Positions 13,333-18,033 of a stretch of 64,000 nucleotides of DNA are shown piece by piece. Within the stretch, counting starts at the first letter, position 1, and every line of letters begins with the position of its first letter. The stretch spans positions 1-64,000 of the forward strand of contig NZ_JAODOR010000006.1 of NCBI RefSeq assembly GCF_025398275.1, given 5' to 3'. Under the pieces are notes generated by a model, which was not told where the DNA came from, did no database searches, and saw nothing but the letters and a program-made list of their open reading frames with translations. The DNA comes from Microbacterium memoriense. GTDB lineage: Bacteria; Actinomycetota; Actinomycetes; Actinomycetales; Microbacteriaceae. A program made the translations under genes and the position numbers.

Positions 13333-14361
13333 ATGAAGATCGGCATCCTCACCAGCGGCGGCGATTGCCCCGGACTGAACGCCGTCATCCGCGGTCTCGT
13401 GCTCAAGGGCACGACCAACTACAACGTCGAGTTCGTCGGCATCCGTGATGGATGGCGTGGCGTCGTCGACGGCGACTTCTTCCCGCTCACGCGGCACGAG
13501 GTCAAGGGCCTCTCCAAGGTCGGCGGCACGATCCTCGGCACGAGCCGCACGAATCCCTATGAGGGTCCGCGCGGCGGCGCCGAGAACATCAAGGCGACGA
13601 TGTACGGTCACCGCCTCGACGGCATCGTGGCGATCGGCGGCGAGGGCACTCTTGCCGCGGCGAACCGCCTGTACAACGACGGCATCAACGTCATGGGTGT
13701 GCCCAAGACGATCGACAACGACCTCCGCGCGACCGACTACTCGTTCGGTTTCGACACGGCCGTCAACATCGCGACCGAGGCGATGGATCGCCTCCGCACC
13801 ACGGGCGATTCGCACCAGCGATGCATGGTCGCCGAAGTCATGGGACGCCACGTCGGCTGGATCGCTCTGCACTCCGGGATCGCCGCCGGCGCCCACGTCA
13901 TCTGCATCCCCGAGGTGCCGATGTCGATCGACGAGATCACCGCGCAGGTGCAGAAGGCCCACGACCGCGGCCGCGCGCCGCTGATCGTCGTCTCGGAGGG
14001 GTTCACTCTCCAGGGCATGGATGAGGCGTACAGCGACAAGGGCCTGGACGCGTTCAACCGCCCGCGCCTCGGTGGCATCAGCGAGATCCTCGCGCCCGAG
14101 ATCGAGCGCATCACGGGCATCGAGACCCGTGCAACGGTTCTCGGCCACATCCAGCGGGGCGGTTCGCCGTCGGCCTTCGACCGCGTGCTGGCGACTCGGC
14201 TCGGCCTGCACGCCGCGGACGCGGTCGTCGAGGGCGCGTGGGGCCAGATGGTGTCGATGAAGGGCACCGACATCGTCCGTGTCCCCTTCGAGGAGGCCCT
14301 GGGCGAACTGAACACCGTCCCGATCTACCGCTACGAAGAGGCCGCCGCTCTCTTCGGCTGA
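13333..14361 (+). CDS. pfkA: 6-phosphofructokinase
   Basis: PfkA phosphorylates fructose 6-phosphate to fructose 1,6-bisphosphate, the committed step of glycolysis. The 342-aa protein shows TSGGDCPGLNAVIRG at the N-terminus, GGEGT near 102-106, PKTIDND near 124-130 and the substrate loop MGRHVGW. Gly in GGEGT, rather than the Asp of pyrophosphate-dependent enzymes, predicts ATP as donor; the Lys of PKTIDND places it in the mixed-substrate group III common in actinobacteria. A TAGTGT -10 box lies near 13276. The ribosome-binding site AAAGGG precedes the ATG. Confidence 0.95.
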   Translation: MKIGILTSGGDCPGLNAVIRGLVLKGTTNYNVEFVGIRDGWRGVVDGDFFPLTRHEVKGLSKVGGTILGTSRTNPYEGPRGGAENIKATMYGHRLDGIVAIGGEGTLAAANRLYNDGINVMGVPKTIDNDLRATDYSFGFDTAVNIATEAMDRLRTTGDSHQRCMVAEVMGRHVGWIALHSGIAAGAHVICIPEVPMSIDEITAQVQKAHDRGRAPLIVVSEGFTLQGMDEAYSDKGLDAFNRPRLGGISEILAPEIERITGIETRATVLGHIQRGGSPSAFDRVLATRLGLHAADAVVEGAWGQMVSMKGTDIVRVPFEEALGELNTVPIYRYEEAAALFG

Positions 14362-14373
14362 CCCCCACCCGTC

Positions 14374-14465
14374 GTCCCACTTGGGGCGGCCCTTGTCCCA
14401 CTTTCGGCATACTTTGTCCCACTTGTGGTCGATTCTGACGCCAGAAACCAGCCACAAGTGGGACA
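14374..14465. repeat. Left 92-bp element flanking the DUF559 gene
   Basis: GTCCCACTT occurs at 14374, 14395 and 14416, an exact 21-bp period. The third copy extends to TTGTCCCACTTGTGG (14414-14428), which is a perfect 15-bp inverted repeat with 14452-14466. The whole 92-bp element aligns without gaps to the reverse complement of 15634-15725, with 68 of 92 positions identical by my hand count. A 22-bp segment (14444-14465) is also an exact direct repeat of 15663-15684. Confidence 0.9.
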
Positions 14466-14575
14466 AGGGTCGGTTGTGGACCGGAGCTTCCTCCACAATG
14501 TGAGGCTTCGCCGCGTCATCCACCGATCGCACCGCAGGGTGCCCGCTCGCGGGGCGCGCGGACGACGATGGGCGG

Positions 14576-15490
14576 ATGCCGGCATCCGACGATCCTGCCG
14601 CACTCCTTCCTGCGGCGTTCACTGTTGCGCAAGCGCGCGCGGTCGGCGTTGAGCGAGGACGACTGCGCGGGCTGGCCTACACCACCCCGTTTCATTCCGT
14701 CCGAGTGCGGGGCGCCGTAGAGGCGAACTCGCTGACGGCGTCGTGTCTCGCATTCGTGCCGCGGTTGACGGACGGACAGTTCTTCAGCCATGAGACGGCG
14801 CTCGTCCAGCACGGCGTGCCGATGCCGGAGTGGCCCTATCGGCCTGCCGTGCATGTGTCCGCGTACCGGCCCGCACGCGAGCCACGCACGCGCGGCATCA
14901 TCGGGCATCGGCTGCAGCTTCGTGAACCGGCATTCGCGGTCATCGGCGCCCTTCCGATCGAGAATCCGGTGCGCGCATGGCGGCAGGTGGGGAGGCTATG
15001 GAGCTTCGCCGATCTTGTCGCGGCGGCTGACTTCCTCATTTCCGGGGATCGTCCTCTCGCGGCGGTCGAGGATCTGCGCGCGGAGATCGCCACCATGGGC
15101 GATGTGCGAAGCGGGATCCTCGCCCGTTCGTTGCGCGCCGTGCGTTTCGGGGTGCGGTCGCCGCGTGAAACGCGACTGCGGCTCCTGCTTGGGGATGCAG
15201 GATTCCCCGAGCCGGCCGTGGGGTGGAATCTGTTCGACGACCGCGGCGAGTTCGTCGCTGAACTCGACCTGGCGTTCCCGCGCTATCGCGTGGCGATCGA
15301 GTACGACGGCCGCGTGCACGCGGAGGATGCCGCGCAGTTCGCACGGGATGCGGACCGGTGGGCTGCCATCCGGGACATGGGGTGGGATCACCGGCGTGTG
15401 CTGTCGCATCACATGGGCAGCGGTGGACGTGCTGCCGTGGCGATTGTTCGTGATGCGCTGACGCGGGCGGGGTGGACGCCAGGCCGGTGA
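14576..15490 (+). CDS. wHTH plus DUF559 (Vsr-like nuclease fold) protein
   Basis: The 304-aa protein has an N-terminal ~45-residue segment resembling the winged-helix of AbiEi-type antitoxins (VAQARAVGVERGRLRG). A middle region of unknown fold follows, then a C-terminal DUF559 domain. The PD-(D/E)XK-like residues are Glu198 in SPRETRL, Asp231 in AELDLAFP, and Glu242 and Asp244 in AIEYDG. Such proteins are common, often multi-copy and poorly characterised in actinobacteria; nuclease activity is inferred from the Vsr-like fold only. No toxin partner is adjacent. The start has no clear ribosome-binding site or TANNNT box. It is bracketed by paired inverted repeats and has a paralogue at 42324-43211. 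Confidence 0.75.
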   Translation: MPASDDPAALLPAAFTVAQARAVGVERGRLRGLAYTTPFHSVRVRGAVEANSLTASCLAFVPRLTDGQFFSHETALVQHGVPMPEWPYRPAVHVSAYRPAREPRTRGIIGHRLQLREPAFAVIGALPIENPVRAWRQVGRLWSFADLVAAADFLISGDRPLAAVEDLRAEIATMGDVRSGILARSLRAVRFGVRSPRETRLRLLLGDAGFPEPAVGWNLFDDRGEFVAELDLAFPRYRVAIEYDGRVHAEDAAQFARDADRWAAIRDMGWDHRRVLSHHMGSGGRAAVAIVRDALTRAGWTPGR

Positions 15491-15594
15491 CCGCCGATCG
15501 CTGGCCTCGCTGACCGGGCGTTGCGCGCTGCCGACCGGGCGTCGTCCCCCGCATCCTTCACCCTGCCGTCGCGTGCGCCGCCGCATCCTGCCGC

Positions 15595-15624
15595 CTCGCC
15601 CTCGCCCTCGCCCTCGCCCTCGCC
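15595..15624 (+). repeat. Hexanucleotide microsatellite (CTCGCC)x5
   Basis: Five perfect tandem copies of CTCGCC lie between the DUF559 stop and the right 92-bp element. They are non-coding here and may vary in number between strains. Confidence 0.9.
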
Positions 15625-15633
15625 GAGACAGCA

Positions 15634-15725
15634 TGTCCCAAAAGTGGCTGAAATTCCGCGCCGAAACCAGCCACAAGTGGGACACCGGTTGCCCAAAGTG
15701 GGACACAGGCTGCCCAAAGTGGGAC
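15634..15725. repeat. Right 92-bp element flanking the DUF559 gene
   Basis: This mirrors the left element. AAGTGGGAC occurs at 15675, 15696 and 15717, again an exact 21-bp period, and TGTCCCA (15634-15640) supplies the opposite arm. It lies between the convergent DUF559 and oligopeptidase genes. No target-site duplication is visible outside the two elements. Confidence 0.9.
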
Positions 15726-15760
15726 ACGCGCGGCAGCCGCAGGGGCGGCAGCTGCGGGGA

Positions 15761-17863
15761 TCAGTCGGCGAGGTCGAGGACGTCCAGCAGCCAGGCGAGT
15801 TCGAACGCCCGCTGGCGCCACGCGTTGTACCGGCCGCTGACACCACCGTGCCCGGCGACCATCTCGCACTTCAGCAGCGCGTCGGCGCCGACGGCGCGCA
15901 GACGCGCCACCCACTTGGCCGGCTCGACGTAGAACACGCGGGTGTCGTTGAGCGACGTCGCGGCCAGGATGCGCGGATACGCCACATCCGTCCGGACGTT
16001 CTCGTACGGCGTGTAGGACTTCATGTACGCGTAGACCTCGGGATCGTGCAGCGGGTCACCCCACTCATCCCACTCGATCACGGTCAACGGCAGCGACGGG
16101 TCCAAGATCGTCGTCAGCGCGTCGACGAACGGCACGTCAGCCAGGATGCCGGCGAACATCTCGGGAGCGATGTTCGCGACCGCGCCCATCAGAAGTCCCC
16201 CCGCCGAGCCGCCTTCGGCGACCATGCGATCGGGTGTGGTGACGCCCGAAGCCACCAACTCGTGCGCGCAAGCCACGAAGTCGGTGAACGTGTTGCGCTT
16301 GTGCCCGAGCTTCCCGTCCTCGTACCACTGCCGACCCATCTCGCCGCCACCGCGGACGTGCGCGACGGCGAAGATCACACCACGGTCGAGCATCGACAGT
16401 CGCGCGACCGAGAAGCCGGGTTCGATCGAGTGTTCGTACGAACCGTAGCCGTACAGGTGCACGGGCCGCGGACCGTCCCCGGGCGTGCCGAAGGACGTCT
16501 TCCACACGAGTGAGATCGGTACCCGCACGCCGTCGGATGCCGTCGCCCACACCCGCGATTGCGCGTAGTCGTCGGCGTCATAGCCGCCGAGCACCGGCTG
16601 GCGCTTGCGCAACAGGAACTCACCCGTCGCGACGACATAGTCGTACACGGTGCCCGGGGTCACGAACGACCCGTAGCCGAGGCGCACGAGCGGCGGCGCC
16701 CATTCCGGGTTACCTGCGGCGCCGGCCGAATACAGCTCCTCGGCGAAGTCGAGTTCGTCGACGCGGTCCGTCGCATAGTCGAGCATGCCCATGCGGGCGA
16801 GGCCCTCGCGCCGGTAGGACACCACGCCCCAGTCGCGGAACGCCGAGACGTCCAGCAGCCTGCGGCCGGGCTCGTGGGCGAGCACGACCGCGCGTGGGCC
16901 GGTCGGATTGGCCGCCGAGACCCGAACGAGCTCGAAGTCGAGAGCGTCGTGGTTGTGCAGGATGTACAGCACGTCCTCGCCGTCCACGACCGCGTGGGTC
17001 GCGGAGTACTCGACCCCCTCGCGCCGCGGCCAGATCGAGCGCGGCTCGGAGCGGAGGTCGGCGGCATCCACGAGGTACTCCTCGGAGGTGATCGACGACC
17101 CCACTTCGATCACGAGGTAGCGCTGGCTCCGCGTGAAACCGGCTCCCACCCAGTACCGCTCGTCAGACTCGTGGAACAGCGTCACATCGTCGGATGCCGG
17201 CGTTCCCACTTCATGCAGCCACACGGTGTCGGGCCGCCAGGCATCGTCGACCGTCGTGTAGACGACGAAGCGCCCGTCGGGGGAGAACATGGCTCCGGAC
17301 GAGGTCTGCTCGATCACATCGGGCAGGTCCTTCCCGGTGCCGAGATCGCGGATGCGCAGCGTGTAGCGCTCATCGCCCTCGCTGTCGACGCCGTAGAGCA
17401 GGAGCGTGCCGTCGACGGAGACGTCGAAGCTGCCGAGCGAGAAGAACTCCAACCCGTCGGCCTCGATGTTGCCGTCCAGGAGCACCTGCTCGCCCGGCAC
17501 ATCGACTCCGGGGGAGAGGACCGGCGGTGTCCAGTCGGCGGGGTCGGTCAGTGGCGCGCGACAGTGGATGCCGTACTGCTGTCCTTCGACGGAGCGACCG
17601 TAGTACCACCAGTCACCCTCTCGCGTCGGTACCGAGAGGTCGCTTTCGAGCGTCCGCGACTTGATTTCCTGGAAGATGCGTTCCCGCAGGGGTTCCAGCG
17701 CCGCGGTGCGCGCCTCCGTGTAGGCGTTCTCCGCTTCGAGGTGAGCGATGACTTCGGGGTCATCCTTCGCGCGCAACCATTCGTACTCGTCGACGACCTC
17801 ATCGCCGTGGTGGATGCGGGTGATCGGGCGGACGGGGGCGACGGGCGGGAGAAGCGTGGTCAC
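15761..17863 (-). CDS. ptrB: Oligopeptidase B-like S9 family serine peptidase
   Basis: This prolyl-oligopeptidase-family enzyme cleaves short peptides, in oligopeptidase B after Arg or Lys. The 700-aa protein has the N-terminal beta-propeller and a C-terminal alpha/beta-hydrolase domain. The triad is Ser553 in EGGSAGGLL, Asp640 in NDTRV and His672 in GHGGVSGR. No signal peptide is visible, so it is likely cytoplasmic. The start is a GTG 6 nt after TACCGT on the minus strand; this fits the leaderless pattern and matches the usual family length better than the ~50-residue upstream extension. Substrate class is inferred from overall similarity. Confidence 0.9.
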   Translation of the reverse strand: MTTLLPPVAPVRPITRIHHGDEVVDEYEWLRAKDDPEVIAHLEAENAYTEARTAALEPLRERIFQEIKSRTLESDLSVPTREGDWWYYGRSVEGQQYGIHCRAPLTDPADWTPPVLSPGVDVPGEQVLLDGNIEADGLEFFSLGSFDVSVDGTLLLYGVDSEGDERYTLRIRDLGTGKDLPDVIEQTSSGAMFSPDGRFVVYTTVDDAWRPDTVWLHEVGTPASDDVTLFHESDERYWVGAGFTRSQRYLVIEVGSSITSEEYLVDAADLRSEPRSIWPRREGVEYSATHAVVDGEDVLYILHNHDALDFELVRVSAANPTGPRAVVLAHEPGRRLLDVSAFRDWGVVSYRREGLARMGMLDYATDRVDELDFAEELYSAGAAGNPEWAPPLVRLGYGSFVTPGTVYDYVVATGEFLLRKRQPVLGGYDADDYAQSRVWATASDGVRVPISLVWKTSFGTPGDGPRPVHLYGYGSYEHSIEPGFSVARLSMLDRGVIFAVAHVRGGGEMGRQWYEDGKLGHKRNTFTDFVACAHELVASGVTTPDRMVAEGGSAGGLLMGAVANIAPEMFAGILADVPFVDALTTILDPSLPLTVIEWDEWGDPLHDPEVYAYMKSYTPYENVRTDVAYPRILAATSLNDTRVFYVEPAKWVARLRAVGADALLKCEMVAGHGGVSGRYNAWRQRAFELAWLLDVLDLAD

Positions 17864-17869
17864 TCTGCA

Positions 17870-17875
17870 ACGGTA
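17870..17875 (-). promoter_or_regulatory. Leaderless -10 box of the oligopeptidase gene
   Basis: On the minus strand TACCGT is followed by 6 nt and the GTG at 17863. Confidence 0.55.
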
Positions 17876-18033
17876 GCCGACGCCCAGATCCGACGGCCCG
17901 GGTTCTGTGATCGAGCGCGGGTATGGGAGTATTTTCCTCGTCCGGTTGCCGGAACATGAACCCACGGTGAACTCTTCGTTCGCACTCGCCGATCGCCTCG
18001 GCATTTCCCACATCCTCTGACGGAAAGCGAACT

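Follow-up and report, generated by a model that had tools for sequence, protein, structure and literature searches.

REP-type palindromes are common in bacterial genomes and, to our knowledge, every enzyme linked with them until now is an HUH transposase. REPs of the CGTC type have been described as having no dedicated enzyme (PMC3733652). Two other described proteins bear on the locus presented here: the AbiEi antitoxin, whose operator has a pair of inverted sites, each up to 23 bp long, with 3 bp between them (23-N3-23) (PMC3985639), and I-Bth0305I, an EDxHD homing endonuclease that forms a dimer on target DNA of nearly 60 bp (PMC3943268). In the stretch of Microbacterium DNA that we analysed (64,000 nucleotides, hereafter the window), a gene for a protein with an AbiEi-like fold and a Vsr-type nuclease domain in its structural model is bracketed by palindromes that recur elsewhere in the genome. 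An earlier note on this stretch had drawn attention to the bracketed gene. The best single explanation, to which we give about even odds, is that this is the home locus of a cognate nuclease–palindrome pair that works like a REPtron (a RAYT gene with its REPs) with an unrelated enzyme.

The bracketed gene between pfkA and ptrB

The two arms, at 14374-14465 and 15634-15725, are 92 nt each, lie 1168 nt apart and are complementary at 68 of 92 positions (74%) in inverted, gap-free alignment, so that the inverted repeats described in the earlier note were reproduced by repeat comparison; the 22-bp direct recurrence it reported (14444-14465 and 15663-15684) is also present, as part of a 27-nt match with 93% identity. 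Both arms are compound: 21-nt direct units (GTCCCACTTnCGGCAnnnnnnT) make up the outer part and a 49-bp dyad the part facing the nuclease gene, and the outer direct units start with GTCCCACTT. On the left, direct unit 1 (14374..14394, + strand, GTCCCACTTGGGGCGGCCCTT) and direct unit 2 (14395..14415, +, GTCCCACTTTCGGCATACTTT) are followed by a dyad or hairpin (14416..14464, +) with 15-bp perfect arms, GTCCCACTTGTGG ... CCACAAGTGGGAC. On the right, all on the - strand, a 49-bp dyad (15635..15683) with the internal loop CTTG/CTTT is followed by one direct 21-nt unit (15684..15704) and by an outer one (15705..15725), which lies 35 bp behind the ptrB stop. The left neighbour pfkA (6-phosphofructokinase, 13333..14361, +) stops 12 bp before the left element, and the right neighbour ptrB (S9 family peptidase / oligopeptidase B, 15761..18013, -) is convergent with pfkA.

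Exact GTCCCACTT occurs seven times in the 64-kb window, and all seven copies are inside the two arms. Compared with shuffles, folding stability gave z -6.7 for the left dyad and z -4.2 for the right dyad, in a test of six stretches of which two (L200 and L213) lay off palindromes and were hence uninformative. Confinement of GTCCCACTT to the arms in the window, these z-scores and the dispersed relatives elsewhere in the genome place the bracketing repeats far beyond chance. In elements of this type (family 1), the dyad halves pair at 84%, versus at most 50% when slid against each other. Compensatory double changes were not in excess (13 observed versus 12.0 in column shuffles), and covariation as proof of a single-stranded hairpin was rejected on this count; the lack of an excess speaks more for recognition of double-stranded DNA than for a single-stranded hairpin, in contrast to RAYT. 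The element matches no Rfam family, matches to miRNAs were at chance level only, and 24 element copies set side by side share no conserved GTAG/CGTC end.

As the earlier note had stated, only one gene-like open reading frame (14576..15490, +) lies between the arms. It encodes a 304-aa wHTH plus nuclease protein, the likely cognate partner of the palindromes. In its AlphaFold model (pLDDT 94), residues 4-190 (14585..15145, +), comprising the N-terminal wHTH and the next domain, resemble the AbiEi antitoxin (6y8q, Z 10.9, rmsd 5.7 A over 174 residues), and the PADLOC AbiEi model gave a weak match to the protein (E 1.7e-4). Residues 193-300 (15152..15475, +) of the model resemble the catalytic domain of I-Bth0305I (3r3p, Z 12.8, 2.3 A over 95 residues) and Vsr (1cw0, Z 10.4). 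E198, R202, D231, E242, G245, H248 and D258 do not vary across an alignment of 49 relatives, and this speaks for a working rather than a dead nuclease. Against its label as a DUF559 protein, the match to PF04480 (DUF559) is sub-threshold (12.0 bits, cut-off 20.6, E 0.19); PF18741 (REase_MTES_1575) fits better but also stays below its curated cut-off (24.9 bits, cut-off 38.2, E 2.2e-5), while most relatives match these models (45/49 for PF18741 and 31/49 for PF04480). The family assignment rests on alignment and modelled fold.

Dispersal and co-occurrence in Microbacterium

The window's genome (Microbacterium, 2.76 Mb) holds about 18 element clusters, 16 of them away from the nuclease gene, as counted by exact-motif search and inspection, and some clusters are tandem arrays. 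By home-made gene calls, 15 of the 18 start 4-42 bp past a stop codon, units first and oriented like the gene that ends there; the arms of the home locus likewise lie directly behind the pfkA and ptrB stops. In the related genome G018, 14 of 20 elements are at most 110 bp from a stop, again in the same orientation, and about 6-7 of the 20 sites correspond between the two genomes; with 7 of 20 sites common to two species, turnover is not fast. One element pair of G018 (L294) has an empty counterpart in the window's genome (G000; L042:7158-7381), where the flanks are too diverged for a junction, and neither a clean insertion junction nor a target-site duplication, as a classical insertion sequence or MITE would leave, was obtained at this site.

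Because the repeats are dispersed in the genome, unique terminal repeats of a single mobile unit were rejected as a candidate. The earlier note had also considered that the discrete cassette of about 1.35 kb could be a minimal mobile unit and had named, as speaking against it, the same repeats at many unrelated intergenic sites without the gene; such sites are what the genome contains, so this simple cassette reading fails. RAYT-driven REPs were rejected as well, since no Y1_Tnp protein (PF01797, HUH) was found in the window's genome. As the defining HUH enzyme is absent, the nuclease–palindrome system lies outside the REPtron family. In the same genome, one element copy (L052:9503-9572, G000:C12:28502-28571) lies inside an open frame of about 1311 codons resembling hrpA, and a copy stands at the equivalent position in a related species (L292). 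Another observation is a tandem array with a 103-bp period (L047:4746-5042, G000:C3:200745-201041), similar arrays being present in other genomes.

The main rival to the cognate-pair reading is a binding network without mobilisation. In this view the protein is an AbiEi-type repressor–nuclease fusion, the bracketing palindromes serve as operators for it, and the copies elsewhere are sites to which it binds, whether to regulate 3' ends, to organise the chromosome or to cut its own genome conditionally; their spread would be due to ordinary duplication, recombination and selection. The promoters of AbiEi proteins carry inverted repeats that the proteins themselves bind (PMC3985639, PMC7319586), the geometry of the dyad matches the AbiEi operator, elements are found at gene 3' ends, and a lack of compensatory excess over shuffles is what a double-stranded binding dyad would give. 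Yet an operator is required on the promoter side only, and the brackets stand on both sides; moreover, 20-100 intergenic copies with tandem arrays resemble the spread of a repeat and not evolved operators. We therefore consider this network doubtful, while giving it appreciable weight.

The link between gene and element was surveyed in 119 Microbacterium genomes (drafts, with home-made gene calls), copy numbers being taken from model and pattern searches; counts from the family-1 model level off near 42 in a genome. With a covariance model built on the element, copies were found in 64 of the 119, and a relative of the gene flanked by the same palindrome is present in 26, on both sides in 22. 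Where the gene is flanked (26 genomes), the median number of model matches is 27 (range 1-49); in the 93 others it is 0, and 55 of these have exactly 0 (Mann-Whitney p 9e-15, in a test that ignores species kinship, with which copy number is confounded). Six genomes without a flanked family-1 gene have at least 10 model matches each; in one of them, G107, a 55-aa remnant of a related gene lies at the site. Many family-1 matches without a flanked family-1 gene were seen in G115 (L157, L211-L213), G049 (L110) and G024 (L189), and such genomes may have lost the gene, have another partner or give cross-matches.

Several side observations belong to this survey. The family-1 gene occurs in either orientation between the same brackets (L104, L125, L151, L152, L166, L167 and L177), and the spacing of the family-1 dyad is either 40 nt or, mostly in one clade, 39 nt. 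Paralogues in the window's genome at C4:279549 and C22:24779 of G000 have no significant brackets (IR 20 and 17). A contig labelled Stenotrophomonas maltophilia (L071) carries the pfkA–nuclease arrangement with 84% protein identity, and is probably Microbacterium contamination.

The pfkA-ptrB junction (14362-15760 in the window; L102-L161 across the survey) is a hotspot in Microbacterium, being empty or occupied depending on the species. Empty sites are 3-315 bp long and hold no gene, and some of them (L102, L154 and L140) retain a lone palindrome, so that both the empty sites and the solo elements for which the earlier note had suggested a search exist in the genus. In other species the site carries AbiEi-like nuclease genes of two further types, mostly with their own inverted repeats, which makes at least three types of occupant in all. 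Empty and occupied sites at one hotspot, together with a nuclease domain closest in fold to the homing endonuclease I-Bth0305I, would suit a homing-type selfish cassette, in which the nuclease cuts cassette-free pfkA-ptrB junctions, is copied in by repair, and the palindromes mark or protect occupied sites. This leaves unexplained the dispersed gene-free copies, the different subfamilies at one site and the bracketed genes at unrelated loci, and we regard it as improbable. Alternative AbiEi-like nuclease genes at one site also resemble defence hotspots and, with the weak PADLOC matches to AbiEi, recall an AbiE-like defence or addiction module with palindromic borders. But there is no adjacent toxin partner: the nuclease gene stands alone between pfkA and ptrB, with no AbiEii (DUF1814) nucleotidyltransferase at the locus, and palindromes throughout the genome are not predicted by such a module, which we rate as quite improbable.

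Other subfamilies and their palindromes

To score flanking inverted repeats, the flank upstream of each gene was aligned locally with the reverse complement of its downstream flank. Cross-genome flank pairs were dropped as the null because of shared pfkA-ptrB homology; local shuffles and control genes took their place. The 99% shuffle level was exceeded by 53 of the 73 family genes and by not one of the 88 control genes, an answer to the question raised in the earlier note of whether other genes of the family have paired ends. Similarly, symmetric dyads with a span of at least 45 bp stand on both sides of 53/73 family genes, versus 9/185 controls (p 7e-29), with a median dyad span of 57 bp around family genes; 20 of the 73 have no clear bracket. 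The same counts bear on a reading by coincidence, i.e. that host 3'-end hairpins (terminators) of pfkA and ptrB have caught an unrelated gene between them. Each arm does lie behind a stop codon, with the polarity of the other copies; against this, the arrangement recurs in 26 genomes and with other subfamilies, palindromes and loci, and no control gene was bracketed, so the reading is already contradicted and we give it hardly any credence.

The bracket palindrome differs by subfamily (GTCCCACTT..., GAGTGTCCAAGACACGC..., GCTCGCTGGTCGCGA..., GAGGAGCGATGTTTGCTC..., and more), and the other subfamilies sit mostly at other loci. Four other palindromes were examined for dispersal, of which two were strong, one weak and one apparently none. 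The second family, GAGTGTCCANNRCACGC, has 1-101 sites in 11 of 11 genomes with its gene and none in 9 without it, its reversed control giving 0-0. The third has about 95 sites in G115, the sole genome with its gene, versus a one-mismatch background of 3-16 elsewhere, and the fourth is present only in G115 (11) and G111 (9), one of the G111 copies (C9:13128) lying 150 bp from that genome's own family gene. Around the gene of the G028 subfamily (L145) there are three palindromes, and none elsewhere in the 397 kb sampled (L300-L319). Dispersal of every bracket palindrome was rejected on this case; bracketing is thus possible without evident dispersal.

Ten genomes carry both a family-1 and a family-2 gene, and in these each gene is flanked by its own motif only, with no cross-pairing. 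In the protein tree, a branch with support 100 separates family 2 from the rest, and the family-1 core is one clade (99); with three palindrome labels placed on this tree, 4 changes were needed versus 18 when shuffled. Protein identity and palindrome similarity are correlated (Mantel r 0.46, with 0 of 999 permutations as high). A family profile search found members in 287 of 395 Actinomycetes genomes sampled, and of the members checked in other genera and families many are likewise bracketed by inverted repeats. From these comparisons the pairing of the nuclease family with cognate palindromes is well supported. The suggestion that nuclease and end sequences belong together is strongly supported by co-occurrence, subfamily palindromes, within-genome specificity and tree clades; that of a passenger between REP-like elements came close in arrangement but not in the role of the gene, as the partner looks cognate and not accidental.

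A candidate mechanism and its relation to described systems

For a cognate pair working like a REPtron, we infer binding, cutting and spreading by the nuclease from sequence comparisons. The AbiEi-like N-terminal module would bind one arm of about 20 bp, and a dimer would occupy the dyad of 49-60 bp, since the AbiEi arrangement of 23 + 3 + 23 gives 49 bp, the dyad length here; the extra 21-bp units, two helical turns each, may be further sites on the same DNA face. The Vsr/EDxHD domain would then nick or cut at or near the dyad. With so many cognate sites in the genome, a free double-strand cutter would be lethal, and the enzyme would therefore have to be a nickase, conditional or structure-specific. 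In the weakest step, by analogy with REPtrons (PMC3733652, PMC8266576), cutting and repair might have placed copies of the palindrome, in trans, at the 3' ends of genes, where they would be tolerated or serve as a 3'-end element. The family-1 gene itself mostly stays at one locus.

A broader proposal, which we put forward tentatively and with somewhat less than even confidence, is that Actinomycetes have a second class of palindrome-dispersing enzymes, the AbiEi-Vsr fusion nucleases, which would have evolved independently and in which each subfamily would recognise its own double-stranded dyad of 50-60 bp, cut, and seed copies into gene 3' ends; many orphan intergenic palindrome families in high-GC Gram-positives would thus have a dedicated non-HUH partner. 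In the open-licence literature we found no paper that pairs DUF559 with inverted repeats, those with both DUF559 and palindromic concerning other subjects by title and abstract, and a nuclease–palindrome pairing was likewise not described in papers found for AbiEi, for RAYT or for palindromes of Microbacteriaceae. Our comparisons suggest a nuclease-based counterpart of REP/RAYT, undescribed in the open literature searched. A widespread protein family with its own palindromes by subfamily would give a candidate function for DUF559/MTES_1575-type proteins, such pairs would offer a source for the intergenic palindromes of high-GC Gram-positives, and many natural enzyme-site pairs would make the question of which enzyme made a given repeat directly testable.

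Among described systems, the AbiEi antitoxin of the AbiE type IV toxin-antitoxin system shares the N-terminal fold (6y8q, in the model) and an operator of two inverted sites of about 23 bp that matches the 49-bp dyad (PMC3985639), whereas the protein here is fused to a nuclease, has no AbiEii toxin partner, and has candidate binding-like sites on both sides and genome-wide. EDxHD I-Bth0305I and Vsr share the fold of residues 193-300 (Z 12.8 and 10.4, in the model) and may share the conserved acidic and His residues; the present protein differs in its DNA-binding module, in a gene that lies in no intron, and in its pairing with dispersed palindromes. From REP/RAYT (TnpA-REP) the system differs in its enzyme, modelled as AbiEi-like plus Vsr/EDxHD with no HUH/Y1 protein in the window's genome, in its dyads of 49-66 bp versus the 20-40 bp GTAG/CGTC-tagged hairpins of REPs, and in compensatory changes that are not in excess. 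The likeness to REPtrons and TIRtrons is in the arrangement: the palindromes that bracket the gene belong to a family with dispersed copies (PMC3733652, PMC8266576), repeat abundance tracks the gene (with kinship ignored here and six exceptions with at least 10 matches), and the copies lie mainly behind genes and form cognate pairs with their enzymes (PMC3733652, PMC8266576).
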